A stretch of 64,000 nucleotides of DNA from Methanofollis liminatans DSM 4140 (lineage in GTDB: Archaea > Halobacteriota > Methanomicrobia > Methanomicrobiales > Methanofollaceae): contig NZ_CM001555.1 in assembly GCF_000275865.1 (NCBI RefSeq), positions 2,382,967-2,446,966 on the forward strand, read 5' to 3'. Position 1 is the stretch's first letter. The number at the start of each line of letters is the position of its first letter. The notes beneath the pieces are model-generated. The model was not told the DNA's origin and did not search any database. It saw nothing but the letters and a program-made list of their open reading frames with translations. Below are positions 2,960 to 59,494 of the stretch, in pieces. A program made the translations under genes and the position numbers.

Positions 2960-4078
2960 ATGAACAGGCCGATATGGACGACAATTATAGTGATAACGCT
3001 GCTTTGCACCGGCGTTCTGGTTGCTTCCGGGATCGTAACGATGCTGCGCCCCATCGTCATTTACCCCTCCATCACACCGGCATCGGACGTCCTGGGAACA
3101 GATCAGGCTGAATTCATCTTTCCCTTTGAAGACGCCCGTTACCGGCTCAGGATGCCGGTGGACGCCGCCGTCTACACAGGGGCGCGCGACGGATCGAAGA
3201 GCGCCATACTCTACCGTGAGATCCCTGACGACGAGTGGATCCCGGCATATTATCTCGCGTTCATCGACGACCCGCACCAGGAGGCGCTCTATACAGGTCT
3301 TATCAGTGCTTTTTCCGGGATCAAGGACGAAAACGGTCTTGACTCCGACCGGTACCTGGAGATGATCACGGCATTTGTCCAGTCCATCCCGTACGAGGAC
3401 CACCCCGGCGGCGCTCCGCCGAAGTTCCCGGTGGAGACCGTGGCCGAACGGACTGGCGACTGCGACGACAAGAGTCTCCTACTCGCCGCCCTCCTCTCCA
3501 GGGCCGGCTACGATGTCGCCCTCCTCAACTTCATCGAGAACTCCCATATGGGCGTCGGCATTGCGGCTGACACCGGCACCTACGGCTCGACCGGCTACGC
3601 CTTCATCGAGACGACCGATTACAACTTCGTCGGGGTCGTCCCGGATAACCTGGCAAACGGCGTGCGCCTCACCGGAGACCCCCAGGTGATCAGGGTGGGC
3701 AACGGGACCGGATGCTACACGGCCAGAGCTGAGACGACACATATCATGGAACAGTCAGGGGCGGCACGCGCCGTCATCGACACCTTCGCCCTGAACCTTA
3801 GCGAGCGTCAGGCCGACCTGAAAAAGACCGGGGCCAGCATCGCCAGCGAGAAAGAGACCATTGAAAAACTGCTCATGGCAGGAGATATCGCAGGTTTCAC
3901 CGCACGGATACAGGGCTACAACAACAGAGTGGAAACCTACAACCTGGCCGTTGCGGAGTATGCGGCAGACTCCCGGAGATACGACCGGGCCGTCGAGACC
4001 TACAACTATATCGCCGGCCACCGCTACGACCGAAAAGGCACCTTCGCGTGGCTCCTCTCCAGTTCTTCGGCGGTGTGA
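2960..4078 (+). CDS. Membrane-anchored transglutaminase-like protein
   Basis: 372 residues. A hydrophobic segment at residues about 6-30 acts as signal anchor, placing the rest outside the membrane. The central part (about 130-230) is transglutaminase/cysteine-protease-like: GDCDDKSLLLAALLSRAGY carries the catalytic Cys, the later SHMGVGI the probable His, and ETTDYN the probable Asp. The last 120 residues are polar and probably helical or coiled coil, rich in Tyr. GGGGGA precedes the ATG at good spacing; a GTG immediately upstream (2957) is less likely. Proteins of this layout are common in Methanomicrobiales and are of unknown function, perhaps cell-surface peptide modification. Confidence 0.75.
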   Translation: MNRPIWTTIIVITLLCTGVLVASGIVTMLRPIVIYPSITPASDVLGTDQAEFIFPFEDARYRLRMPVDAAVYTGARDGSKSAILYREIPDDEWIPAYYLAFIDDPHQEALYTGLISAFSGIKDENGLDSDRYLEMITAFVQSIPYEDHPGGAPPKFPVETVAERTGDCDDKSLLLAALLSRAGYDVALLNFIENSHMGVGIAADTGTYGSTGYAFIETTDYNFVGVVPDNLANGVRLTGDPQVIRVGNGTGCYTARAETTHIMEQSGAARAVIDTFALNLSERQADLKKTGASIASEKETIEKLLMAGDIAGFTARIQGYNNRVETYNLAVAEYAADSRRYDRAVETYNYIAGHRYDRKGTFAWLLSSSSAV

Positions 4079-4473
4079 ACCAGGTCGGCCCCCTCGCGAA
4101 CAGGCAGGATCTGCCGGCTCACCTCTCGTTCACGCGAGAGAAGCGAAGTCCTGAACCCTCGCCGTATCTTCTCCGGTTTCGCGTGCGTTCGTATCCATAA
4201 ACCGGGTGCAGACCCGGCGGGGCAGGACCGGGGCCTCTCTCCCCCTGCACGCCGCCGTCTCCCGTGCATGGAGTGTGATCTTCGACATCTGGCTTCTGCG
4301 CAGAACAACCGGGTAGGCACGGGCACGCTCGGCGAGTGCCGAGAAGGTCGTATCGTCCATGATCATACCGGGGGGTGAAGGGTATATTATCCCGGGCCGG
4401 GCGCGGGGTGAAAGTGTATCTTCTGCCGATAACTGTTTATCTGCATTATCAGAAATACTCTGGAGAGGTATCC
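4079..4473. other. Intergenic stretch, no supported gene
   Basis: About 395 bases between the transglutaminase-like gene and sufC. A short inverted repeat CTCTCG/CGAGAG at 4122-4139 could form a terminator hairpin. A 78-codon frame on the minus strand (4130-4366) has no recognisable motif. TTTATCTG near 4436 is a candidate TATA box for sufC. Confidence 0.4.
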
Positions 4474-5205
4474 ATGCTCAAAATCGAGAAGCTGAAGGTC
4501 AGGGTCGGGGACCGGGAAGTCCTCCACGAGATCGATCTTCAGATCAATGACGGGGAGACGCACGTCCTCATGGGGCCGAACGGCTCGGGGAAGAGCACCC
4601 TGTTGATGACCATCATGGGCTTTGGCAACTACGAGGTCATCAGCGGACGGATCGTCTACAACGGAAAGGATATCACCCGCATGCCCATCCATGAACGGGC
4701 GCAGCTGGGGATAGGAATGCTCTTCCAGCGCCCGCCCACCATATCAGGCCTCAAACTCGAAAAACTCCTCACAGCGGTGGCAGGAGGAAAGACAGGAGAT
4801 ATCCCGACCTACGCACGGTCCATGGACATGGAGCGTTTTCTCGAACGGGATATCAACAAGGGATTCTCGGGCGGCGAGATCAAGCGAAGCGAGGTGCTGC
4901 AGTTGATGATCCAGCGGCCCGACTTCATCATGCTCGACGAGCCCGAGAGCGGGGTGGACCTGGAGAACATCTCCCTGATGGGCACCTCGATCGCACACCT
5001 CCTCCAGAAAGACCAGCACATCATGAACCGGCAGAAGAGCGGGCTGATCATCACCCACACCGGCTATATCCTGGATTACCTCGACGCCGACTTCGGCCAT
5101 GTCATGATCGACGGGGCGATACGCTGCCACGGCAACCCCCGCGAGATACTGAAAGTGATCAAAGAGAGAGGATACAGGGAGTGCCTTGCATGCCAGCAGA
5201 TATGA
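4474..5205 (+). CDS. sufC: Fe-S cluster assembly ATPase SufC
   Basis: 243 residues, cytosolic ABC-type ATPase that drives the SufBC(D) scaffold in iron-sulfur cluster assembly. Walker A is GPNGSGKST at residues 34-42, the ABC signature is FSGGEIKRSE near 132, and Walker B is IMLDEPESGVD near 151, followed by the H-loop region ITHTGY. FSGGExKR and DEPExGVD are characteristic of SufC among ABC proteins. The ATG at 4474 has GGAGAGGT at ideal distance, whereas the frame opened upstream at 4375 encodes nothing conserved. The next gene, sufB, overlaps its 3' end, so the two are translationally coupled. Confidence 0.93.
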   Translation: MLKIEKLKVRVGDREVLHEIDLQINDGETHVLMGPNGSGKSTLLMTIMGFGNYEVISGRIVYNGKDITRMPIHERAQLGIGMLFQRPPTISGLKLEKLLTAVAGGKTGDIPTYARSMDMERFLERDINKGFSGGEIKRSEVLQLMIQRPDFIMLDEPESGVDLENISLMGTSIAHLLQKDQHIMNRQKSGLIITHTGYILDYLDADFGHVMIDGAIRCHGNPREILKVIKERGYRECLACQQI

Positions 5206-6299
5206 ATGAAATCGCCCGCCTTCCGGACTCTGAGAAGGAGCGGCTTACCCAGACCGGGCTGGAGATCGGGCTCGAGAACCGGTGCGGGAGTTTCTTCCAG
5301 ATGGACCAGGAGATCCTCCAGACCACCTGCTCGGCCGAGGGCGTGGAAGTGCTCTCCCTCGCAGACGCACTGGAGAAGTACGACTGGATGGCCGAGCACT
5401 ACTGGAACGCCGTCAAGAAGGACAAGGACAAGTACACCGAGTTCGTCGCAAAACAGGAGCGCCCGGCAGGCGTCGTGGTCATCGCCCACAAGGGCGCCCG
5501 CACCGTCTACCCGGTGCAGGCCTGCCTCTACCTTGCCGGCGGGCCGGTGCAGACGGTGCACAACATCATGATCGCCGAGGAGGGCGCCGAACTCCATGTG
5601 ATCTCCGGGTGCGCCAGCGCCGCCGGGGCGAAGAGCGGCTCGCATCTCGGCGTGACCGAGTTTTACGTCGGCAAAAATGCACGGATCACCTCGACGATGA
5701 TCCACAACTGGAACCCGCACATCTCAGTTTACCCGCGGAGCGCCGCCATCGTGGAGGAGAACGGCGTGTTCATCTCCAACTATGTCTGTATGCAGCCGGT
5801 ATCCAGGATCCAGATGTACCCGCAGGCGACCCTCGGCAAAAACGCCGTCGGGCGCTTCTCGTCCATCGTGGTCGCACAGCCCGACTCTCACTTCGACCTG
5901 GGCTCCAGGGCAATCCTCCAGGGGAAGGGGAGCAGCGCCGAACTGATCACCCGCGCCATCACGAAGGGCGGGACGATCATCTCCAGGGGCCACATCCTGG
6001 GCGAGACCGAGGAGACAAAGGGGCATATCGAGTGCAAGGGGATGATCCTCAAGGACGGGACGATCCACGCCATCCCGGAGATCGAGGGCAGAGTGACCGG
6101 GACCGAACTCTCGCACGAGGCGGCAGTCGGCAAGATCGCCCGCGACGAGATCGAGTACCTGATGGCCCGCGGCCTCGACGAGGAGACGGCGACGGCGACG
6201 ATCATCCGCGGCTTTTTAGACGTGAAGATCGAGGGGCTGCCGCCGATGCTGCAGCAGCAGATCGACGCGGCGATCGACGCCGCAGACGCTGGTTTCTAA
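5190..6299 (+). CDS. sufB: Fe-S cluster assembly scaffold SufB/SufD
   Basis: 369 residues, partner of SufC. The single SufBD-type beta-helix domain spans roughly residues 110-330; the stretch with GRFSSIVVAQPDSHFDLGSRAIL and the GHIECKGMILKDG region match the SufB core, and the end (about 330-365) holds the ARDEIEYLMARGLDE helix common to the family. It is shorter than bacterial SufB (about 470), as usual in archaea where one SufBD protein serves. Start at 5190 has GGGAGTG upstream; an ATG at 5202 overlapping the sufC stop is the alternative. Archaea often use only SufBC for cluster synthesis, consistent with this two-gene unit. Confidence 0.9.
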   Translation: MPADMNEIARLPDSEKERLTQTGLEIGLENRCGSFFQMDQEILQTTCSAEGVEVLSLADALEKYDWMAEHYWNAVKKDKDKYTEFVAKQERPAGVVVIAHKGARTVYPVQACLYLAGGPVQTVHNIMIAEEGAELHVISGCASAAGAKSGSHLGVTEFYVGKNARITSTMIHNWNPHISVYPRSAAIVEENGVFISNYVCMQPVSRIQMYPQATLGKNAVGRFSSIVVAQPDSHFDLGSRAILQGKGSSAELITRAITKGGTIISRGHILGETEETKGHIECKGMILKDGTIHAIPEIEGRVTGTELSHEAAVGKIARDEIEYLMARGLDEETATATIIRGFLDVKIEGLPPMLQQQIDAAIDAADAGF

Positions 6300-9473: not shown

Positions 9474-10672
9474 TGGAGTGCGTCATCCTTGCGGCGGGCG
9501 AGGGGACGCGGATGCGCCCGCTCACCGCCGAGCGCCCGAAAGTGATGCTCCCCCTCGCCAACCGCCCGATGCTCGAGCACCTGGTCAGGGCAGTCACCGA
9601 GGCCGGGATCACCGCGATCACCCTGGTCGTCGGCTACGGCGAGCGTGAAGTGCGGGAGTGGTTCGGCGACGGCAGCCGCCTCGGCGTCACGATCCGCTAC
9701 GTCGTCCAGCGCCGCCAGCTCGGGACCGCCGACGCCCTCCGGGCGACAAAAGGGCTGGTCACCGGCCGGTTCCTGATGCTCAACGGCGACATGATCGTCG
9801 ATGCGGCCGATCTCGCCGACCTCTGCACGAGAGAAGCCCCGTGCATGGGCGTCTACGAGAGCGACCACCCACAGGACTACGGTGTCGTGACGATCGAGGG
9901 GGACCTGATCACCGGGCTCGAGGAGAAATCACGCCAGCCAAAAAGCCGGATGATCAACGCCGGCGTCTACCTCTTCGACCCCGAGATCTACAAACGGCTG
10001 GAGGGCGTGCCCCTCTCAGGCCGGGGCGAATACGAACTCACCGACGCTCTGGCCGACTATATCGCCGAAGGACGCCTTTCCGCCTATCGCCTCTCCACCT
10101 GGATGGACGTCGGGGCGCCGTGGGACCTCCTGGACGCCAGCGCCACCCTGCTCTCACGGATGAAACCCGCCTGCGAGGGAACGGTCGAGGACGGCGTCGT
10201 CATCCACGGCAAACTGGTCCTGGGCAAAAACTCGGTGGTCAAGGCCGGCACCTACATCGAGGGCGACTGCATCGTCGGCGAGGGGTGCACGATCGGCCCC
10301 CACGCCTATATCAGGGGCTCGACGGCGATCGGCGACGGCTGCCATATCGGCCACGCCGTCGAGGTGAAAAACTCGATCGTCTTCGCCGGGACAAAGATCC
10401 CGCACTTCAACTATATCGGCGACTCGATCATCGGGAGCCAGTGCAACTTCGGTGCCGGCACTAAGGTCGCAAACCTCAGGCACGACCACGGGAACATCTC
10501 GATCAACGGCAGGTCCACCGGCCGGAGGAAGTTCGGGGCGATCATCGGCGACCACGTCCTCTTCGGGATCAACTGCTCGGTGAACGTCGGCAGCGTCATC
10601 GGGAGTTATTCCCTCATCGGGCCGCACAGCCTCGTCGAGGGAACCCTGAAAGACCGGACCGTGATCAGGTAG
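9470..10672 (+). CDS. Bifunctional sugar-1-P nucleotidylyltransferase/acetyltransferase (GlmU-like), copy 1
   Basis: 400 residues. The N-terminal Rossmann domain (1-225) starts with ILAAGEGTRMRPLT, the nucleotidyltransferase signature, with LNGDM as the metal site. The C-terminal left-handed beta-helix (about 245-400) shows hexapeptide repeats such as VVIHGKLVLGKNSVVKAGTYI and ends in KFGAIIGDHVLFGINC. Archaeal proteins of this layout acetylate GlcN-1-P and transfer UMP or dTMP to it. The start is one of two adjacent ATGs (9470 or 9473) after GGAGG. First of two tandem paralogues inside the glycan operon. Confidence 0.88.
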   Translation: MMECVILAAGEGTRMRPLTAERPKVMLPLANRPMLEHLVRAVTEAGITAITLVVGYGEREVREWFGDGSRLGVTIRYVVQRRQLGTADALRATKGLVTGRFLMLNGDMIVDAADLADLCTREAPCMGVYESDHPQDYGVVTIEGDLITGLEEKSRQPKSRMINAGVYLFDPEIYKRLEGVPLSGRGEYELTDALADYIAEGRLSAYRLSTWMDVGAPWDLLDASATLLSRMKPACEGTVEDGVVIHGKLVLGKNSVVKAGTYIEGDCIVGEGCTIGPHAYIRGSTAIGDGCHIGHAVEVKNSIVFAGTKIPHFNYIGDSIIGSQCNFGAGTKVANLRHDHGNISINGRSTGRRKFGAIIGDHVLFGINCSVNVGSVIGSYSLIGPHSLVEGTLKDRTVIR

Positions 10673-10685
10673 GTGAATGAAAACC

Positions 10686-11840
10686 ATGCAGGCAGTTATT
10701 CTTGCAGCAGGTGAGGGCAGGCGTCTGCGCCCTCTCACCCATGCCATGCCCAAGGCGATGGTGCCGGTGGCGAACCGGCCGATCCTTGAGTACATCGTTC
10801 GGGCGCTCGAAAAGAACGGGATCAGGGAGATCATCGTCGTCGTCGGCTACAAAAAAGAGCAGGTGATCAGGCACCTCAACGGCCTGGAGATCCCGGTGAA
10901 GGTCGTCGTCCAGGAGCGGCAGCTCGGCACCGCCCACGCCCTCAAATGCGCGGCGCCCCTGATCACCGGCGACTTCCTCCTCCTCCCCGGCGACAACTAC
11001 ATCGACACGGCCTCGATCGCCCGGATCATGGGGGAGAGAAATGCCGTCCTGACCTGGGACCACCCCCACCCCTCGAACTTCGGGGTGCTCATGATCAGGG
11101 ACGGCTCGGTCCAGCAGGTGATCGAGAAGCCCAGCGAGGCGCCCGGTTTCACCGTATCGACCGGGATCTTCTCGCTCGGACCGGCGTTTCTGGACTTCCT
11201 CGGCGACGAGACCGAGATCCCGAATGCGATCAATGCGATGATCGCCGCCGGCACGCCCTTGAAGGCGGTCCCGGCAGAGGACTGGCAGGACGCCATCTAC
11301 CCCTGGGACCTCCTGAGGCTGAACGCAGCGCTCCTGCAGGGCGTGAGGCAGGAGCGGGCCGGGCGGATCGGCTCTTCGGTCGTGATCAAAGGGCAGGTCT
11401 CCATCGGTCGGGGGACGACGATCGGCCCGAACAGCACCATTCTCGGCCCGGTCGTTATCGGCGAAGACTGCGAGATCGGGCCGAACTGCGTCGTCCTGCC
11501 CGAGACGAGCATCGGCGATCGGGTCAGGATCGAGCCTTTCACCCTGATCGGCCACTCCCTGATCCTCGCCGACGCCTGCATCGGCTCCCATGCCCGGATC
11601 ACCGACGCCGTCGTCGGCACCGGGACGCAGGTAGGCGACCATGCGACGACCTCGCCGCAACGGACCATCTTCTCGATCGAGGGGGAGCTGATCAGGGCGA
11701 AGTTCGGGGCGATCATCGGGGACAACGTGCGGTCCGCCCCGTTCTGCGTCTTCAAAAACTGCATCGTCGGGAACAATGTCTGCGTAGAAGATGGGAAAAC
11801 GCTCTACGGCGAAGTTCCTGATGGGGCAAGAATTATATAA
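10686..11840 (+). CDS. Bifunctional sugar-1-P nucleotidylyltransferase/acetyltransferase (GlmU-like), copy 2
   Basis: 384 residues, same two-domain layout as copy 1: ILAAGEGRRLRPLT at the N-terminus, LLPGDN as the metal site, and a left-handed beta-helix from about residue 225. The end reads KFGAIIGDNVRSAPFC, close to the copy 1 terminus. Start set at 10686 because AGGTGA at 10671-10676 is 9 bases away, while the ATG at 10677 abuts it. The two copies differ in the nucleotidyltransferase active-site loop (Thr-Arg-Met versus Arg-Arg-Leu), so they may prefer different sugars or nucleotides, or one may mainly acetylate. Part of the UDP-GlcNAc gene set. Confidence 0.85.
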   Translation: MQAVILAAGEGRRLRPLTHAMPKAMVPVANRPILEYIVRALEKNGIREIIVVVGYKKEQVIRHLNGLEIPVKVVVQERQLGTAHALKCAAPLITGDFLLLPGDNYIDTASIARIMGERNAVLTWDHPHPSNFGVLMIRDGSVQQVIEKPSEAPGFTVSTGIFSLGPAFLDFLGDETEIPNAINAMIAAGTPLKAVPAEDWQDAIYPWDLLRLNAALLQGVRQERAGRIGSSVVIKGQVSIGRGTTIGPNSTILGPVVIGEDCEIGPNCVVLPETSIGDRVRIEPFTLIGHSLILADACIGSHARITDAVVGTGTQVGDHATTSPQRTIFSIEGELIRAKFGAIIGDNVRSAPFCVFKNCIVGNNVCVEDGKTLYGEVPDGARII

Positions 11841-48851: not shown

Positions 48852-51800
48852 TTATTCAATCACCCTAAACCACGCGTCCCGCAGTCCCACATTATACTGG
48901 GCGATGAACATCGCATCACCAACTTCGACAGCGCCGTTCCAGTGGACATCAGTACGCTCAAAATCATCGGTATTCTTTTCAGGCGGATCAAGCAGCCCTA
49001 CAACCTCTTTGAGCACACGCAGGGTATCAGCCTGATTTACCTCACCATCATTATTGGCATCACCGAGAAGAACCCCTGAAGTGACCCTGATGTAACCGGG
49101 ATCGGTAAAGGTATCTTCACCCCCGTTAATCGAGAGCGCAACCGAATAGCTGCCGGGTGCAGTGTAGACATGAACCGGGTTTTGTTCGGTCGAGTTTGCG
49201 CCATCACCGAAGTTCCAGAACCATGAGGTGACATTGCCGGTGGATGTGTCAGTGAACTGCACCGTAAGCGGGGTATATCCCTGGAGAGGTTCAGCAGTAA
49301 AGTTTGCCGCAGCAGGGAGGGTTACTCTGATTGACATCCCTTTCAGAATTGAGAGAAGGTTATCCTGCCATACAACACCCCAGTTGCATGACGTATTCGT
49401 CTGAACCGAAAACTCAGATGCATCCGCCGGCAGCATAGATGCAGGTATTTCTGCCTTATTCGTGACTCCCAGATCCGCACTGCCATTGTTCTGACCTTCC
49501 CAGACATATGCTATCGGTTTGTGCATCACCGCGGTTCCATTGGGAATGATGGTTGTATCAAACCTGAAGTAATACTCTGTTCCGATTACAAGAGCAGATT
49601 TGTCAAGTTTCAGGTGATAACTACCGTCTGTCAGAAGAGGCGTTGAAAGAGGTGCATTTGTCATAAAAGACGAGTTGATAATTTCAGTTGTCATATTGTG
49701 GTCTTTTGCTGATGCAAACCCGACAAATACTGACTCAAAATCAAGGTCATCCAATACTAACGTGATATTTGTCTCCTGAATTCCGGGTGCTGTAAATGTT
49801 ACCTGACTGCAGTTTCGTGTCAATGTATGGGTGAATGATCTAAACTCTGCAAATGAGGTGTCTGCCCGTGTATCAAACGCACTCTGTGGCCCGATTACAT
49901 ATTCCGACGGGAAATTCCACTCTGCATAGGTTGAGTTCCATGTTGCATAATCATCATACTCAACGGAGGTGATATTTGCAACTCCTGCAACATACGTCAG
50001 ATTTCCGAGGTATACTTTTTCATCCAGATTCTCGGCATGCAGTCTGTATGTCTGGAAGGAAGGATAGGCCCCCGGGACAAATGTATCGTTCTCAGTTGAT
50101 GCGGCAAAGTTACGGTTCAGATCAAACCGTGCCTCTGGTACAGGTGCGGAAATGGTTATCAGATGTACCTTTGTTATGGTGTCCGAACCGCCTGCATTGG
50201 ATACATTCAGGCTCACATTGAAAGTGCCTTCCATCGTGTAGATATGCGATGGGTTCTGAACGGTTGATGTGTTCCCGTCACCGAAGTTCCATACCCATGA
50301 CGCCGGATTTCCTGTAGACGTGTCGGTGAACTGCACTGCGAGGGGAGCGGAACCGCTTGTCACATTAGCAATAAAAGCGGCAACAGGTGGGGTGGCGGGG
50401 GTGTACGATCTGAACACCTGTATCCTGTTATTGTATTCATCCGCCGCATAGACAAGGCCGTCACCATTGACTGCAACACCGAGCAGCCCTGAAAACTCAC
50501 CATCACCGGAACCTGAGACCCCCCATGTGGTGATGAAAATACCATTGCCGGTAAACTTCCGGATATCAGAGGATGCCGTATAGAGATCAAAGGATGTCAC
50601 ATAGACATTTCCGGCATCGTCCGTTGCGATACAGGAAGGAGAAAGGAGTTGCCCGACTCCCTTGTCATCTGACACCCATGTGGCAATGAAGGTGCCGGAG
50701 ATGTCGAATTTCTGAATCCGTCCACCATAGCCGTCTGTAACATAAACATTGCCGAAAGGATCTGTCGCGACACCCTGTGGATCCATGAACTCCCCGGCGC
50801 CGGTGCCATACGATCCCCATTTCGTGATGAAGGTGCCGTTAGAATCGAACTTCTGGATACGGGCAATGACATACTCTTCAGCATCTGCCACATAGATGAA
50901 TCCGTCCTCATCCACTGCGATGCCACGGAGACCACTGAACTGCCCGTCACCATAGCCAACCGGCCATCCCCCCCATTTCGTGATGAAGGTGCCGTTGGCA
51001 TCGAACTTCTGGATACGGTTATTGCCTGAGTCTGCCACATAGACAAAACCTTCACCATCGATAGCGACTCCTTTCGGGAAGGAGAAATTTCCATTCGCTT
51101 CGATCACGGGGAGCTCACCAGGTAAAGATGGTGATTCCTCATGTCCCCATGTTGTGATAAAGGTGCCATTGGCATCGAACTTCTGGATGCGGTGATTGTT
51201 CGTATCTGCTACATAGACATTGCCGGCATCATCAACCGCGACACCCTTCGGGTATGAGAACTCGCTGTCACCGGGCGGCTCAGAGCCCCATGTGGTGATG
51301 AAGGTGCCGGAGCTGTCGAACTTCTGGATGCGGTTATTATAGTGATCGGTTACATAGACGTGGCTTTCTGCATCAACCACGATACCACGCGGCTCTTCAA
51401 ACTCTCCGTCCCCGGTGCCCCGTAGGCCCCATGAGGTGAGGAATGTGCCGGTGCTGCTAAATTTCTGGATGCGGTTGTTAAGTGAATCAGCCACGTAGAC
51501 GTTGCTGTCTGCATCCACTGCGATGCCTGTCGGAGAACGGAATTGTCCGATTCCCGCGCCATACGATCCCCAGGCGGCAATGAAGGTGCCGGAGTTGTCG
51601 AACTTCTGGATCCGTGAGTTAATGGGGTCTGTCACATAGAGATTGCCGGCACGGTCTACTGCGACGCTATCTGGTCCCAGCCCGAATTGCCCATCGCCAG
51701 AGCCCTGAGAGAATACAAATTTTGTGATGAAAGTGCCGGAACTATCGAACTTCTGGATACGGTTATTCCAGTAATCTGATACATAGAGGTAGCCGGCACT

Positions 51801-54800
51801 GTCCACGGTGATACCACGCGGATCGGAAAACTCCCCGTCGCCGGAGCCATACGATCCCCATTTCGTGATGAAGGTGCCGTTTGCATCAAACTTCTGGATC
51901 CGATTATTATAGAGGTCTGCCACATAGACGTTGCCGGCAGCATCCATCACAACGCCATGCGGTCCATTCTCGGAATAAGAATCATAGTCGCATCCAAACT
52001 CCCCGTCGCCGGAGCCCGGAGATCCCCATTTGGTGCTAAAGGTACCGTTACGGTCAAATTTCTGGATCCGGAGATTATTGGAGTCTGCCACGCAGACATT
52101 ACCTGCGGCGTCCACCCCGATGCCCATTGGGCCAAGGAGCCGCCCATCGCCATACGATCCCCATTTCATGACGAATTCGTAGTCTTCTGCCAGAGGACTC
52201 ACGGTTATGTAGTCATTCTTTGTATTGGTGTCGCTTCCTACTGCATTCGTTGCTGTTAATGAGACAGTATAAAAGCCCGGTATCATATAGGTCTTTTTTG
52301 GGTTCTGTTCATGTGAGATTGTACCGTCCCCGAAAGTCCATTGCCATTCCGTTGGTTCTCCGGTTGATTCATCGGTGAATGTGACTGTCAGCGGGGCTGT
52401 ACCAGCGGTTGGCAGAGCAGTGAAGCTGGTGAACGGCATTCCTTCGGGAATGGGTTCAAATATCTGGATGCGATGATTCCGTGCATCTGTTACATAGACG
52501 TTGCCGGCATTATCCACCAGGGTATCCCACGGCTCGTTAAACTCCCCTTCGCCTGTACCATACGAACCAAATTCTGTCAGGAAGGTTCCGTTGGTATCAA
52601 ATATCTGTATGCGATGGTTCAGGGAATCTGCCACAAAGACATTTCCCCTCGAATCCACCGCAATACCCCTTGGTACGTTGAACTGTCCGTCGCCTGAGCC
52701 TGCAGTTCCCCATTTCGTAATGAACGTGCCGGTGCTGGTGAATTTTTGGATGTTGTTATTCCCCGCATCAGACACGAAGACGTTGCCGTCTGCATCCACT
52801 ACAATGCCATGTGGGCGGTCAAACTCTCCGTCACCGGTACCACCGGAACCCCATTTGGTGATGAAAGTACCGTTTGAATCAAACTTCTGGATCCGCTGGT
52901 TGGCATTATCTGCTACATAGATGGAGCCGTCTGCATCAATGGTGATGCCCTGTGGAAAGTCAAACTGCCCGTCACCGGTGCCGTAGGATCCCCATTTGGC
53001 GATGAAAGTGCCAGTGCTGTCAAACTTCTGAATGCGGCTATTCCAGGTATCTGTCACATAGACATTGCTGTCGGAATCCACTGCAATACCATGCGGCATG
53101 TTGAACTCCCCATCTTCTGAATATCCGGAAGAGCCCCATTTGGTGATGAATGAACCAGTTCTATTGAACTTCTGGATGCGGTCATTCCCATAATCCACCA
53201 CATATATGTTACCGGCAGTGTCCCTGACGATACCGTCAGGATACGTGAACTCTCCGTCAGCTGTGCCCCTGGATCCCCACTCTGAGATGAACCTGAAGTT
53301 TGCCGGTGTCGGAACATCGGTGGCGTTTATGTAATTTACCTTTGTGACGGTACTGCTCCCCTGTGCATTCGTTGCATTGAGTGAGACGGTGTAGGTTCCA
53401 ATAGTTGTGTAGGTCTTCTTTGGGTTCTGGTCGGTTGAATTGGTTCCGTCACCAAACTCCCAGAACCACTGTGTCGGCTCTCTTGTCGAGAGATCAGTGA
53501 ACTGCACGGTAAGGGGGGCAATTCCAATTTTGGGTGTCCCGGAGAAGTTGGCACCTGGTGACGCCGGTTCATCAGTGACCGTTATGTAATTCTCCCGTGT
53601 TTTCGTGCTGCTGCCGTCGGCATTTGTTGCGTTGAGTGAGACAGTGTAGGTGCCCGCGGTTGTGTAGGTCTTCTGTGGGTTCTGGTCGGTTGAATTGGTT
53701 CCGTCACCAAAGTCCCAGAGCCATTGTGCAGGCCCCCCGGTTGAGAGATCGGTAAACTGCACGGTTAGGGGTGCTGTTCCATTGGTGGGTGTCCCGGTGA
53801 AGTTGGCGACCGGTGGTACCGGGTCATCAGTGACCGTTATGTAATTCTCCCGTGTTTTCGTGCTGCTGCCGTCGGCATTTGTTGCGTTGAGAGAAACGGT
53901 GTAGGTGCCCAAAGTTGTGTAGGTCTTCAGCGGGTTCTGCTCGATTGAATTGGTTCCGTCACCAAACTGCCAGAACCATTCTGTCGGCTCTCCCGTCGAG
54001 AGATCAGTATACTGCACGGTCAGCGGGGCCCTTCCGGTGGTGGGTGTTCCGGTGAAGTTGGCGACCGGTGATACGGGGTCATCAGTGACCGTTATGTAAT
54101 TCTCTCGTGTTTTCGTGCTGCTGCCGTCGGCATTTGTTGCGCTGAGTGAGACGGTGTAGGTGCCCAAAGTAGTGTAGGTCTTCTGTGGGTTCTGGCTGGT
54201 TGAATTGGTTCCGTCGCCAAACTCCCAGAACCACTCTGTCGGCACTCCGGTTGAGGTGTCATTGAACTGCACCGTAAGCGGGGCTGTTCCATTGGCAGGC
54301 GTTCCCGTGAAGTTGGCAACCGGTGGTGTCGGGGTGTCAGTAACCGATATATAACTCTCTTGTATTTTCGTGCTGCTCCCATCGACATTTGTTGCATTAA
54401 GCGAAACAGTGTAGGTCCCCACTGTTGTGTACGTCTTCTGAGGGGTCCGTTCAGTTGACGTTGTTCCGTCACCAAACTCCCAGAACCACTCTGTCGGCCC
54501 TCCCGTCGAGAGATCGGTGAACTGAACGGCAAGAGGTTTTCTGCCGGAGGTGGGTGTTCCGATAAAGTCAGAAACAGGGATTACCGGGAAATTGGTGACG
54601 TTAATATAGGATTCCTTTGTGGAACTGTTACTTCCACCATCATTGGTTGCATTGAGTGATATGGTGTATAAACCGGGTATCTCATAGGTCTTTGTCGGAT
54701 GCTGAAGTGTTGAGGTGTTCCCATCTCCAAAGTCCCAGAACCATTGTGTAGCATTCCCGGCCGAGGTGTCGTTGAACCGGACGGTCAGCGGAGCAGAACC

Positions 54801-56321
54801 AACGGTGGGATACCCGATAAAATTGGTGACAGGTGGTGGCTGGGTTACGATAATCTGACCACTATATACATATATATCACTCAGATTATCACGACCGACC
54901 CATAATGACACAATATACCAATCAGGTATCATGAAAGTGTAGTTCAGGTTCTGCTCGTCAGTTGTGTACGACCATTCGGGATCATCATAGCGTGCCAGGC
55001 TCCACTCCCATGTGTCGGGGGGTGCAAGACCACCGGTGGAGGTGTCAGTAAACTGTACGGTAAGGGGGGCAGCACCCTCGGTGGTGTTCATGGTGAAGTT
55101 CGCTTTGACCCAGTCAAGGACGGTTATGTAACCATTTTTCGTTGTTGTGTTACTGCTGATTTCGTTCTCAACAGTTAGTGACACATTGTAGACGCCGGGT
55201 ACGGTATAGATGGAGAATGGATGCTGTTCTTCTGAAAAATTGCCATCCCCAAAGTCCCATGACCATGAAGTGGGCGACCCACGGGATATATCAGTAAAAT
55301 TCACCCTAAGAGGGAAATCCCCTTCTGTTGGCTCTCCGGTGAAGTTGGCAAACGGAAGCGATGAGAACTTCTGGATGCGGTGATAATCCCTCTGTGCCTC
55401 GCCGTCTGCCACATAGACATATCCGCCGCTATCCACTGCAACGCCCTTTGGATACTGAAACTCCCCATCTCCTGAGCCACGGTATCCCCATTTGGTGATG
55501 AAGGTACCGTTAGAATCAAATTTCTGGACACGGTACAGCAGGCCGGATCCCGTATAATATTGCCCTTCCGCAACGAAGAGATTGCCCTGATCGTCTACCG
55601 CAGCACCGCTTGGTGGGTAGGTAAACTGGCCGTTGCCCATGCCTTCCGAACCCCATTTGGTGATGAAGGTGCCATTCGCATCAAACTTCTGAATACGATA
55701 ATTCTCATCACCAACATACACACTGTCATTCTTTCCTATTGCAATAGCCATGGGAAATCTGAACTGTCCATCGCCTGCACCCTGATTTCCCCATTGTGTA
55801 ACGAAGGTGCCTGTAGAATCAAACTTCTGGACACGATGATTGACGGTATCTGTCACATAGATATTGCTGGCATTGTCCACCGCAATGCCCCCGGGACTCT
55901 CGAACTGGCCTTCACCTGAACCCTTGGTACCCCATGTGGCAATGTAGGTGCCATCTCCATCGAACTTCTGGACGCGGTTATTTGTCTGTTCCACGACATA
56001 GACATAGCCTTCACCATCCACTGCGACGCCCCTGGGATACGAAAATTGACCGGCGCCGGTGCCCGGGGCACCCCATTTTGTGATAAAATCACCGGTGTTG
56101 CTGAATTTTTGTATCCTGTTATTTCCCGGATCTGCTACATAGACATCGCCTCCGGGATCCACCGCAATTCCCTCCGGCCTGATAAACTGCGCGTCGCCAG
56201 AGCCATATGAGCCCCATTTTGTGACAAATTCATATGATTCAGCGGCCTGCACCCCGGCGATGATATAGGTGCAGAGGATAAGCACTGTAAAGATATTTAC
56301 CATAGATCTCTTTCTCATCAT
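48852..56321 (-). CDS. Giant secreted NHL-propeller/PKD/dockerin surface protein
   Basis: 2,489 residues. Signal peptide 1-26. Rough order: NHL block 1 (30-325, 6 blades), PKD 1-8 (327-1016), NHL block 2 (1020-1300, 6 blades), PKD 9, NHL block 3 (1385-1990, 12 blades), PKD 10, a unique domain of about 250 residues (2080-2345), PKD 11, and a dockerin-like end with GDANNDGEVNQADTLRVL. Blades repeat GDGEF-P-GIAVD-GNVYVAD-NNRIQKFD; PKD domains repeat APLTVQFTDLSTG and WFWEFGDG. Many N-x-S/T sites are seen, often NGT in the blade strand. No C-terminal membrane anchor or PGF signal. Likely a cell-surface or extracellular adhesion protein; partner unknown. Confidence 0.9.
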   Translation of the reverse strand: MMRKRSMVNIFTVLILCTYIIAGVQAAESYEFVTKWGSYGSGDAQFIRPEGIAVDPGGDVYVADPGNNRIQKFSNTGDFITKWGAPGTGAGQFSYPRGVAVDGEGYVYVVEQTNNRVQKFDGDGTYIATWGTKGSGEGQFESPGGIAVDNASNIYVTDTVNHRVQKFDSTGTFVTQWGNQGAGDGQFRFPMAIAIGKNDSVYVGDENYRIQKFDANGTFITKWGSEGMGNGQFTYPPSGAAVDDQGNLFVAEGQYYTGSGLLYRVQKFDSNGTFITKWGYRGSGDGEFQYPKGVAVDSGGYVYVADGEAQRDYHRIQKFSSLPFANFTGEPTEGDFPLRVNFTDISRGSPTSWSWDFGDGNFSEEQHPFSIYTVPGVYNVSLTVENEISSNTTTKNGYITVLDWVKANFTMNTTEGAAPLTVQFTDTSTGGLAPPDTWEWSLARYDDPEWSYTTDEQNLNYTFMIPDWYIVSLWVGRDNLSDIYVYSGQIIVTQPPPVTNFIGYPTVGSAPLTVRFNDTSAGNATQWFWDFGDGNTSTLQHPTKTYEIPGLYTISLNATNDGGSNSSTKESYINVTNFPVIPVSDFIGTPTSGRKPLAVQFTDLSTGGPTEWFWEFGDGTTSTERTPQKTYTTVGTYTVSLNATNVDGSSTKIQESYISVTDTPTPPVANFTGTPANGTAPLTVQFNDTSTGVPTEWFWEFGDGTNSTSQNPQKTYTTLGTYTVSLSATNADGSSTKTRENYITVTDDPVSPVANFTGTPTTGRAPLTVQYTDLSTGEPTEWFWQFGDGTNSIEQNPLKTYTTLGTYTVSLNATNADGSSTKTRENYITVTDDPVPPVANFTGTPTNGTAPLTVQFTDLSTGGPAQWLWDFGDGTNSTDQNPQKTYTTAGTYTVSLNATNADGSSTKTRENYITVTDEPASPGANFSGTPKIGIAPLTVQFTDLSTREPTQWFWEFGDGTNSTDQNPKKTYTTIGTYTVSLNATNAQGSSTVTKVNYINATDVPTPANFRFISEWGSRGTADGEFTYPDGIVRDTAGNIYVVDYGNDRIQKFNRTGSFITKWGSSGYSEDGEFNMPHGIAVDSDSNVYVTDTWNSRIQKFDSTGTFIAKWGSYGTGDGQFDFPQGITIDADGSIYVADNANQRIQKFDSNGTFITKWGSGGTGDGEFDRPHGIVVDADGNVFVSDAGNNNIQKFTSTGTFITKWGTAGSGDGQFNVPRGIAVDSRGNVFVADSLNHRIQIFDTNGTFLTEFGSYGTGEGEFNEPWDTLVDNAGNVYVTDARNHRIQIFEPIPEGMPFTSFTALPTAGTAPLTVTFTDESTGEPTEWQWTFGDGTISHEQNPKKTYMIPGFYTVSLTATNAVGSDTNTKNDYITVSPLAEDYEFVMKWGSYGDGRLLGPMGIGVDAAGNVCVADSNNLRIQKFDRNGTFSTKWGSPGSGDGEFGCDYDSYSENGPHGVVMDAAGNVYVADLYNNRIQKFDANGTFITKWGSYGSGDGEFSDPRGITVDSAGYLYVSDYWNNRIQKFDSSGTFITKFVFSQGSGDGQFGLGPDSVAVDRAGNLYVTDPINSRIQKFDNSGTFIAAWGSYGAGIGQFRSPTGIAVDADSNVYVADSLNNRIQKFSSTGTFLTSWGLRGTGDGEFEEPRGIVVDAESHVYVTDHYNNRIQKFDSSGTFITTWGSEPPGDSEFSYPKGVAVDDAGNVYVADTNNHRIQKFDANGTFITTWGHEESPSLPGELPVIEANGNFSFPKGVAIDGEGFVYVADSGNNRIQKFDANGTFITKWGGWPVGYGDGQFSGLRGIAVDEDGFIYVADAEEYVIARIQKFDSNGTFITKWGSYGTGAGEFMDPQGVATDPFGNVYVTDGYGGRIQKFDISGTFIATWVSDDKGVGQLLSPSCIATDDAGNVYVTSFDLYTASSDIRKFTGNGIFITTWGVSGSGDGEFSGLLGVAVNGDGLVYAADEYNNRIQVFRSYTPATPPVAAFIANVTSGSAPLAVQFTDTSTGNPASWVWNFGDGNTSTVQNPSHIYTMEGTFNVSLNVSNAGGSDTITKVHLITISAPVPEARFDLNRNFAASTENDTFVPGAYPSFQTYRLHAENLDEKVYLGNLTYVAGVANITSVEYDDYATWNSTYAEWNFPSEYVIGPQSAFDTRADTSFAEFRSFTHTLTRNCSQVTFTAPGIQETNITLVLDDLDFESVFVGFASAKDHNMTTEIINSSFMTNAPLSTPLLTDGSYHLKLDKSALVIGTEYYFRFDTTIIPNGTAVMHKPIAYVWEGQNNGSADLGVTNKAEIPASMLPADASEFSVQTNTSCNWGVVWQDNLLSILKGMSIRVTLPAAANFTAEPLQGYTPLTVQFTDTSTGNVTSWFWNFGDGANSTEQNPVHVYTAPGSYSVALSINGGEDTFTDPGYIRVTSGVLLGDANNDGEVNQADTLRVLKEVVGLLDPPEKNTDDFERTDVHWNGAVEVGDAMFIAQYNVGLRDAWFRVIE
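53300..54590 (-). repeat. Tandem near-identical PKD-coding units
   Basis: PKD domains 4-8 are encoded by five consecutive units of about 255 bases with long identical stretches, for example those coding TYTVSLNATNADGSSTKTRENY. High identity suggests recent unequal recombination and possible length variation between strains. Confidence 0.7.
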
Positions 56322-57610: not shown

Positions 57611-58450
57611 GTGATTGTTGCGGTTTCAGACGTGCACCTGGGCCATAAGGACGAGGGAAAACAGGAGCGGTTTCTCGAGTTCCTGGACCGGTGCGATACC
57701 GGGGAGATCGACCACCTGGTACTGCTCGGCGACATCTTCGACTTCTGGCGGCGGAGCAACGGACTGATCTTCTTCTGCGGGGGGAGGAAGAAAGAAGATC
57801 CTCAGGAGCAGGCCACCGTGGAACGGCTGGTAAATACCAACTGCAAAATTCTCGCGAAACTCTCCGGGCTGCAGGTGAAGAATCTCCACTATGTCGTTGG
57901 GAACCACGACTACTACATCCACCGCCTGCAGAAGAGAAATCCGGCCACCTATCCGTTCCCTGTCTCAAAGACCCTGCGACTGGAGGACGACGGAAAGGGG
58001 TACTTCTTCACGCACGGCTACGACATGGACGTCTACGCCACGATGGAGTCTCTGATGAGCATCGACCAGTACGAAACATTGAGCGAGAGCCTTTGTTTCC
58101 TGACCGATAAATCGGGATGGCTTGCAGACCGCCTGTGGGGGGTATCGGAGGTCATCGAGGATCTGAAATACCGTATCAGATCGATGCAGAAGCCACCGGC
58201 CGAGAGAGAAACAGAGATGGATCTCATCACGCGGTTTGCGCAGTCCCGCGCCGCCCACCTCTTCCTCGGGATGCACCCGATGGACAGTCTCATCTACGGG
58301 CACACCCATGTCCCTGGCTGCAAAAAGATGGACTGCGGAGCCTATGTGGCAAACACGGGGTGCTGGAGCGGGAGCGATCAGGGCTGGTATGTCAGGATAT
58401 CAGAGGGTACGGTGGAGGCGCTGAATTTCAAAGGAGAAAATGTTGTTTAA
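57611..58450 (+). CDS. Calcineurin-like metallophosphoesterase (LpxH-like)
   Basis: 279 residues from a GTG at 57611. Two-metal phosphoesterase motifs are complete: VSDVHLGH (residues 5-12), LLGDIFDFW near 38, VVGNHDYY near 98, FTHGYDMD near 138, and GHTHVPG near 232. The D-x-H/GD-x2-D/GNHD/H/GHTH order is that of UDP-diacylglucosamine hydrolase-like enzymes; archaea have no lipid A, so the substrate must differ. A long helical insert (about 148-215) precedes GHTH. Soluble. Confidence 0.85.
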   Translation: MIVAVSDVHLGHKDEGKQERFLEFLDRCDTGEIDHLVLLGDIFDFWRRSNGLIFFCGGRKKEDPQEQATVERLVNTNCKILAKLSGLQVKNLHYVVGNHDYYIHRLQKRNPATYPFPVSKTLRLEDDGKGYFFTHGYDMDVYATMESLMSIDQYETLSESLCFLTDKSGWLADRLWGVSEVIEDLKYRIRSMQKPPAERETEMDLITRFAQSRAAHLFLGMHPMDSLIYGHTHVPGCKKMDCGAYVANTGCWSGSDQGWYVRISEGTVEALNFKGENVV

Positions 58451-58558
58451 CCGGGCTCCCCCACCAGCCGCCCGGCCCTTGTCGCAGACAGTGCAGCGCC
58501 CGAGATCGCTCGTCACCCCCACGTACCTGCTGTGGTCCGGCACGCTGGAGAGGGACAC
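58451..58558 (-). pseudogene. Possible truncated zinc-ribbon ORF
   Basis: A minus-strand frame from GTG at 58558 reads VSLSSVPDHSRYVGVTSD and LGRCTVCDKGRA, which looks like the first half of a small zinc-ribbon protein with one CxxC pair. The expected second pair is absent: the frame runs on into antisense of the metallophosphoesterase gene and ends near 58400. Low-confidence remnant. The TTGCAC cluster lies 18-56 bases upstream of its start. Confidence 0.3.
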
Positions 58559-58575
58559 CGGCCAGGTTTGTACTT

Positions 58576-58892
58576 TTGCACCGGGTTGCACCCCTTTGCA
58601 CTTGCCGGGTGCAACTAAACGGACACGCAATAAGACTTTGATTTGAAATCAAACCCCTTTCTCCCCAATCATCCCCGGATGTGCACTCAAATGCAGATCG
58701 CACACACACGCACCCACAGCCGCGGGATCATCAGGGGTGGCGTGTGCGTCCCAATTTCTGTGCAATATACTATTATGAGAGAGAGAATTCTCTCTCCTCT
58801 CTATAGAATATTCATTCCAACCTCGTTCCTCCGCTTTTGTAGTTTGCACTTTTCCAGTGCAACTCCGGTGCAAACGAGGTGCAAACGTGCAA
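58576..58892. promoter_or_regulatory. Ten TTGCAC/GTGCAA sites with a central palindrome
   Basis: TTGCAC at 58576, 58586, 58596 (10-base steps) and 58844; GTGCAA at 58609, 58760, 58857, 58868, 58879 and 58887. An 18-base perfect palindrome of GAGAGAGAA and its complement lies at 58779-58796, beside TATA-like words (AATATACTATTAT, CTATAGAATATT). The stretch is between the 3' ends of two convergent genes. It looks like a regulated promoter or protein-binding array for an unannotated transcript. Confidence 0.5.
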
Positions 58893-58993
58893 TCATCAGG
58901 CGGGTCGAGATCGATCCGGCTCCTACCCCCCCACTCCACCGGCGGTATGCTCCCGCGCACCGGGAAAAGAACATCTATGTATGAGATACCCCG

Positions 58994-59494
58994 TCACACC
59001 ACTTCGAGCACGTTCCCGACCACAGACTCCAGACCCTCACCCGAAGAGGCGACGGTGAGATCGGCATACCGCTCATAGAGCGGAACCCGCTCGTCGTACA
59101 TCCCGCGGAGGCTCTGGCCAGGGAGGAGGACGATCCCCCGGGTCGTAATGTTCTTGAGCCTCCGTTCCATCTCGTCGTACGAGATCTCCAGGTACACGAC
59201 CATCCCTCCGGCTTTCAGGTGCGCCATCGCAGCCTCGCTGCAGACCACGCTCCCGCCCGTCGCGATCACCGCATGCTCCGCGTGGAGGGAGAGGACCGTC
59301 TCCTCCTCGATCCGCCCGAACGCATCAGGCCCGTCCTCGTCGAGGATCGCCTGCAGCATCCTCCCGGTCCGCTCCTGGATCAGGATATCGGTATCGATGA
59401 ACCGCATACCGAGGGACTTTGCAAGGATGACGCCCACAGTGCTCTTCCCCGCACCGGGCATCCCGATGAGGATGATGTTTTTGTGGTGATGCAT
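58994..59494 (-). CDS. aroK: Bacterial-type shikimate kinase
   Basis: 166 residues. NMP-kinase fold. Walker A GMPGAGKST at residues 11-19, shikimate-binding FIDTDILIQERTGR near 32, GGSVV near 80, and the lid and adenine region with LPGQSLRGMYDERVPLYERYADL (about 124-148). Most archaea use a GHMP-family shikimate kinase, so this is the bacterial type, either acquired by transfer or a paralogue phosphorylating another substrate. Length fits AroK (160-175). Confidence 0.82.
   Translation of the reverse strand: MHHHKNIILIGMPGAGKSTVGVILAKSLGMRFIDTDILIQERTGRMLQAILDEDGPDAFGRIEEETVLSLHAEHAVIATGGSVVCSEAAMAHLKAGGMVVYLEISYDEMERRLKNITTRGIVLLPGQSLRGMYDERVPLYERYADLTVASSGEGLESVVGNVLEVV

Follow-up and report, generated by a model that had tools for sequence, protein, structure and literature searches.

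A phased hexamer array in Methanofollis liminatans as the probable remnant of an iteron-type replication origin

What are ten copies of one hexamer doing, in helical phase, between two genes that both end there? The question was raised by an earlier note on 64,000 nucleotides of Methanofollis liminatans DSM 4140 DNA, the whole of which is here called the window. The hexamers, their phased spacing, an 18-base palindrome and the convergent flanking genes all lie where that note had placed them. Exact TTGCAC occurs at 58576, 58586, 58596 and 58844, and its complement GTGCAA at 58609, 58760, 58857, 58868, 58879 and 58887, giving ten exact hexamers within 317 bp (Poisson P ∼4e-16, taking the hexamer density of the window). 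Over its whole length the window is not enriched, with 27 hexamers vs 23.75 ± 4.55 in shuffles, and 10 of these 27 are concentrated in 0.5% of its length. Nor is the hexamer equally frequent throughout the genome: over 541 kb sampled it averages 0.28/kb, and the 400-bp stretches sampled hold three at most, the element and its own-genome relatives excepted.

The hexamers form two mirror-image arms of five each, four inward and one outward, when the degenerate TTGTAC at 58568 is counted. The left arm (58566–58614, as aligned in 31 copies) runs from this degenerate site through three TTGCAC to the inverted GTGCAA at 58609, with spacings of 8-10-10-13. The right arm (58844–58892) has TTGCAC followed by four inverted GTGCAA, with spacings of 13-11-11-8, so that the intervals in the two arms are mostly 10 or 11 bp. 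Between them lie GTGCAC, a self-complementary iteron-like word kept in most copies (58681–58686), and a hairpin-like dyad near the centre of the element (58701–58748, with arms at 58701–58715 and 58734–58748). Co-variation across this dyad is weak (132 Watson–Crick cells vs 127 ± 2 in shuffles, with a shuffled maximum of 134) and its best frame is gapped, and we therefore claim only an inverted repeat. An internal GTGCAA on the minus strand (58760–58765) adjoins an AT-rich core resembling an unwinding element (58766–58815), in which the perfect 18-bp palindrome GAGAGAGAATTCTCTCTC (58779–58796) is flanked by TACTATTAT (58768) and TATAGAATATT (58802). The core is the local GC minimum, at 35% over 58750–58809 vs ∼60% for the genome.

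Two host genes converge on the array, one for a calcineurin-like metallophosphoesterase (57611–58450, plus strand; Pfam PF00149) and the other for shikimate kinase (58994–59494, minus strand; Pfam PF01202). As they end at 58450 and 58994, the array is not the promoter of either, as the note had already argued. Between them, on the minus strand at 58466–58933, is the C-terminal remnant of an AEP-primase/MCM-like-helicase gene (tblastn E 2e-22; profile match E 2.8e-29, with an internal stop). The remnant corresponds to residues ∼730–890 of a ∼920-aa protein, its frame is broken, and it covers the entire array together with a zinc ribbon that is truncated at the neighbouring gene. A search of the window for remnants of cdc6 or of an integrase gave none. 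To judge from its sequence, the window array is a relic, apparently the leftover of an integrative element that has lost everything except ∼470 bp of its replication gene. The feature itself is ordinary; its interest lies in the family that it reveals. Elsewhere in the window, a 2489-aa ORF with repeated NHL-like and PKD-like domains, identified by eye, probably encodes a secreted surface protein (48852–56321, minus strand), and an Rfam flavi_FSE hit inside the metallophosphoesterase gene (58245–58307, minus strand; 27.9 bits vs a cut-off of 43) is probably due to chance.

An array inside a primase–helicase gene

A second copy in the same genome (L002/L042) falls within an open reading frame of ∼920 codons that is convergent with an Orc1/Cdc6-like gene. 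Intact copies were also found in genomes G002, G005, G008 and G009 and, from another family, in G022, all with a frame that stays open across the array and on into a conserved zinc ribbon. Indeed, every intact TTGCAC-class copy examined has an ORF that is open through the array, with no frame-breaking indel inside it. From its N-terminus onwards, the encoded protein has a probable AEP-type primase, a helicase of MCM-like AAA+ fold, a putative winged helix, a linker coded by the array and a zinc ribbon. The array sits in frame between winged helix and zinc ribbon, in the 3′ part of the gene.

The full protein gave no usable match in Pfam, NCBIfam or PDB sequence searches. A structure model was built from 62 homologues (pLDDT 81). 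Residues ∼243–640 of the model match MCM helicases (the best matches are all MCM, Z 17.5–19.4 over ∼270 residues), and Walker A (SGNSGKGKSH) and Walker B (VFLFDD) motifs fall in this helicase part, whose modelled fold is MCM-like AAA+. The fold of the modelled N-terminus matches viral AEP/RepB-type primases, and residues resembling the AEP motifs (DxD, SGxGxH and a later D/N..R), which have no Pfam match, are invariant or nearly so in the 62 sequences. At ∼640–716 the model shows a helix-helix-helix-strands segment, which we read by analogy as a winged helix.

Full-length relatives occur in Methanoculleus, Methanofollis, Methanogenium, Methanoregula, Methanolinea and Methanospirillum, and the N-terminal part is found also in bacteria and viral contigs. 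There was no match among phage records and one partial, N-terminal match among plasmid records; for viral contigs, a scan with the single protein gave no match and an alignment search recovered relatives of the N-terminal, primase part only. Tyrosine integrases lie near several intact genes (L055, L076, L088, L103 and, in the window's own genome, ∼2.057 Mb) and none lies near the window copy, and Orc1/Cdc6 genes are near many elements, but were not seen near every copy. The window's own genome holds three intact primase–helicase genes, at 2.229, 0.164 and 2.053 Mb, whose bodies are 76–82% and zinc ribbons 84–95% identical, and whose arrays are only 13–29% identical. Two of the intact genes in this genome were located at 2.050–2.059 Mb (L222), near the ∼2.057-Mb integrase, and at 163662–166415. 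In two genomes, genes resembling type I restriction-modification subunits, as judged by eye, directly adjoin the primase–helicase gene (L073:10914-19918 and L076:10591-17524).

The embedded array behaves as a DNA element. Over five intact copies, identity at codon positions 1/2/3 is 84/88/68% in the body of the gene and 81/81/68% in the zinc ribbon; in the array it is 74/71/68%, and in the array core 91/72/77%. As the usual codon-position pattern is lost there, we conclude that it is the DNA rather than the protein that is constrained. Many of 32 full-length homologues carry a linker array of other hexamers at the same place, with a comparable 8-11-11-13 spacing; the inverted-array words include TTTGCA, CTGTCA, CTGCCA, ACAGCA, TTTCAG and CCGCAA. 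Several of the 32 share a palindrome of the AGAGAGA-CGCG-TCTCTCT type, and several have no clear top hexamer. At two loci (L096:7950-11249 and L098:7989-11441) the array-coded linker is expanded by in-frame tandem blocks of ∼153 bp, with iterons in each.

We put at about three in four the probability that the array is what is left of a replication origin of the iteron type, belonging to an integrative-element family of Methanomicrobiales and embedded in the initiator gene. Three features of such origins are present, namely helically phased short repeats, an AT-rich region alongside and a putative initiator gene around the repeats, of which the window retains only the remnant. In the mechanism that seems to us the likeliest, the winged helix of the primase–helicase would bind the iterons of both arms, which are inverted with respect to each other, and the palindromic, AT-rich core that they enclose would melt. 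The MCM-like helicase would be loaded at the melted core, and the primase would start synthesis, helped by the Orc1/Cdc6 encoded nearby in many elements. Recombination would swap the recognition region and the array as one cassette, yielding new, mutually compatible replicons. The window element would have decayed to leave an orphan site.

An archaeal ORB site was also considered for the array and is not favoured: the best match was 12/16, which 25 of 300 shuffles reached, and the array resembles the ORB sites of this chromosome no more closely than shuffles do. GC skew over the ∼541 kb sampled gave no clear origin signal. The probable chromosomal origin lies at L044 ∼10405–11200 (136.4–137.2 kb of the genome), where ORB-like TTTCCACTGGAG...CCCC sites are accompanied by dense CGATCGCG-type repeats. 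These ORB-like sites adjoin the best-scoring cdc6, which is another gene than that of the element.

Recognition region and array

The recognition region, the part of the protein that probably reads the iterons, changes together with the array in comparisons between closely related genes. Between L052 and L084, the body is 91% identical, the recognition region 72%, the array-coded stretch 22% and the zinc ribbon 85%. The corresponding values are 87, 78, 18 and 78% for L055 and L070, and 85, 72, 21 and 76% for L055 and L056. Over 210 pairs, which are not independent and whose iteron classes we assigned ourselves (class B being heterogeneous), the difference of recognition from body identity was +9.1 for pairs of the same class and −1.4 for pairs of different classes (rank test P 3e-18). 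The zinc ribbon lies just as near the array, on its other side, and showed no effect of class in the same 210 pairs (P 0.64). The best explanation of these comparisons is that recognition region and array are exchanged between elements as one cassette, and their co-change could partly reflect linkage, as they are adjacent. A second possible reader, Orc1/Cdc6, is not favoured. The Cdc6 proteins encoded near L052 and L084 are 91% identical, with a nearly identical recognition sequence, and the iterons there differ, which makes the winged helix the better candidate.

The class-specific changes also bear on the suggestion, made in the earlier note, that the array binds an architectural protein. 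A nucleoid or architectural-protein site unrelated to mobile elements would fit the phasing on one face of the helix and the several dispersed copies per genome. However, the sequence classes change with the protein of one element, and the copies carry remnants of its gene, so that we find this reading scarcely credible. What survives of the suggestion is a phased, putatively protein-binding array; since its sequence changes with the recognition region, the architectural protein gives way to a replicon-specific initiator.

A partition, handcuffing or copy-control (incompatibility) site, bound by the primase–helicase or by another protein of the element, would have the same anatomy and the same co-change with the recognition region as an origin. 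Iteron sites in known plasmids commonly serve both origin and copy-control roles. A pure copy-control array, however, needs neither a location in a primase–helicase gene nor an AT-rich palindrome core between inverted arms, and we regard it as quite unlikely that the array serves in this way and is not an origin.

Orphan copies

The 341-bp element has three copies in its own genome. Far from being absent from close relatives, which the note had named as grounds for doubt, it is found in 11 of 12 Methanofollis genomes, with 1–7 copies in each. Alignment of 31 copies shows conservation of both arms, of the inverted repeat and of the core, but not of the spacer. In L060 and L065 (both of G004) the majority of the repeats show a concerted shift to TTCAC/GTGAA, a pattern that, at the level of sequence, is as expected for the sites of one protein.

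According to a simple gene caller, 20 copies lie outside predicted ORFs, 11 of them between convergent, 9 between tandem and none between divergent genes. This distribution speaks against transcription control, by which the array would act, as promoter or operator, on the zinc-ribbon frame or on a small RNA, as the note had proposed. TATA-like words and a palindrome are indeed present, but intact copies have the array within the coding sequence, close to the 3′ end of the gene, and the array has no Rfam match, which also tells against a small RNA. The partial zinc ribbon that the note saw beside the array is there; it lies on the minus strand and represents the C-terminus, now broken, of the gene in which the array was embedded. 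The array, being coding sequence of that gene in intact relatives, does not regulate the zinc-ribbon frame. We consider such a role very unlikely.

Are the orphans simply decaying? In five orthologous orphan pairs, identity is 88% in the core, 82% in the hairpin, 79% in the right arm, 73% in the left arm and 68% in the spacer; relative to the spacer, the difference is significant for the core and the hairpin (Fisher P 6e-11 and 1e-5, respectively), and the left arm is not better conserved (P 0.12). Many orphans carry frame-breaking indels, and since some orthologous pairs share them, the ancestor of these pairs was probably already broken. The window orphan itself has an orthologue in G010, adjoining the same metallophosphoesterase gene, and one frame-breaking insertion is common to both. 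This conservation, from which decayed orphans are missing because copies were found by similarity, and which may partly predate breakage of the element, suggests that not all orphans are decaying freely and that some may still be used.

A second iteron class, class B, has many orphan copies per genome. Class-B orphans lie 39–127 bp from class-A ones at different chromosomal sites (L053:9476-10064, L054:9562-10144, L065:9978-10612 and G010:C86:165-779), and in the four pairs checked class B is always upstream of class A in the direction of the gene. The same 1-bp shortening of the spacer occurs in eight orphans (L061, L063, L064, L065, L068, L071, L072 and L074) at several sites in three genomes, as if a non-coding form had spread. 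At L077:9848-10182, a TTGCAC array stands outside any primase gene, ∼4 kb from a primase–helicase gene (3111–5990) with a CTGTCA array.

Retention of the orphans, that of the window included, for the benefit of the host, either as decoys titrating incoming initiators or as dispersed chromosomal origins or landmarks, is conceivable though on balance improbable. It would account for the 1–7 copies of this class per genome and the many of the second class, for the conservation of core and hairpin over spacer in the orthologous pairs, for the indels that some pairs have in common, and for second-class orphans lying directly beside first-class ones at several places. On the other hand, the constraint may partly date from an intact ancestral element, similarity-based finding misses decayed orphans, the left arm shows no more conservation than the spacer, and the G010 orthologue of the window orphan carries mutations in several hexamers. 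Such host use is compatible with the origin explanation, because it concerns present use only. Its more specific form, that orphan arrays are kept on purpose as decoys titrating the initiators of incoming elements of the same iteron class, seems to us unlikely on these comparisons; if it is true, sites at which two classes cluster would amount to a rough record of past elements, added to over time. The orphans in any case raise the question of whether a host turns old origins against newly arriving elements.

Known systems

For archaeal mobile elements it is often not known where replication begins. In many Methanomicrobiales elements a probable origin could now be read straight from the replication gene, with a sequence class that tracks the adjacent recognition region. 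This makes the co-evolution of initiator and site testable, and provides candidate origins for vectors in methanogens, where tools are few. Travel of the cassette would also explain how related integrated replicons share one cell, as with three intact genes bearing different arrays in a 2.5-Mb genome. Outside subscription journals, the literature searched contained no report of an origin array inside an AEP–MCM gene or of its exchange with a recognition region, and nothing relevant on Methanoculleus or Methanofollis origins or elements of this kind.

Among known systems, archaeal ORB origins likewise have inverted sites around an AT-rich element, with Orc1/Cdc6 genes nearby, but differ from the array in iteron sequence and spacing. 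Iteron plasmid origins have phased short repeats too, as does SGI1, an integrated island with an iteron origin near rep and a replication module of its own (PMC7433901). Here, unlike in these, the rep gene itself contains the sites, which are exchanged together with its recognition region, and the proteins are archaeal. AEP primases fused to helicases, including MCM, are described for PrimPol-PV1, PrimQH and others from integrated elements by Kazlauskas et al. (2018, PMC5862659), in passages that describe no array inside the gene; the present family matches no Pfam or NCBIfam model.

The layout recalls two other systems. The Sulfolobus plasmid pRN1 has its origin at the 3′ end of the primase–helicase gene, whose protein carries a C-terminal winged helix (PMC4234260). 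There, however, the origin is a stem-loop of ∼100 nt after the stop codon, without iterons, and the helicase is SF3, whereas here the iterons are within the ORF and the helicase is MCM-like. The origin of phage lambda consists of iterons and an AT-rich tract inside the O coding sequence, and the protein gains residues with every additional iteron (PMC7466680). The likeness is that of iterons and an AT tract within an initiator gene; the proteins are unrelated. Lambda O, a separate initiator, has neither a primase nor a helicase part, and the lambda iterons lie on one side of the AT tract, in contrast to the array, in which two inverted arms surround a palindrome core inside an archaeal primase–helicase gene.
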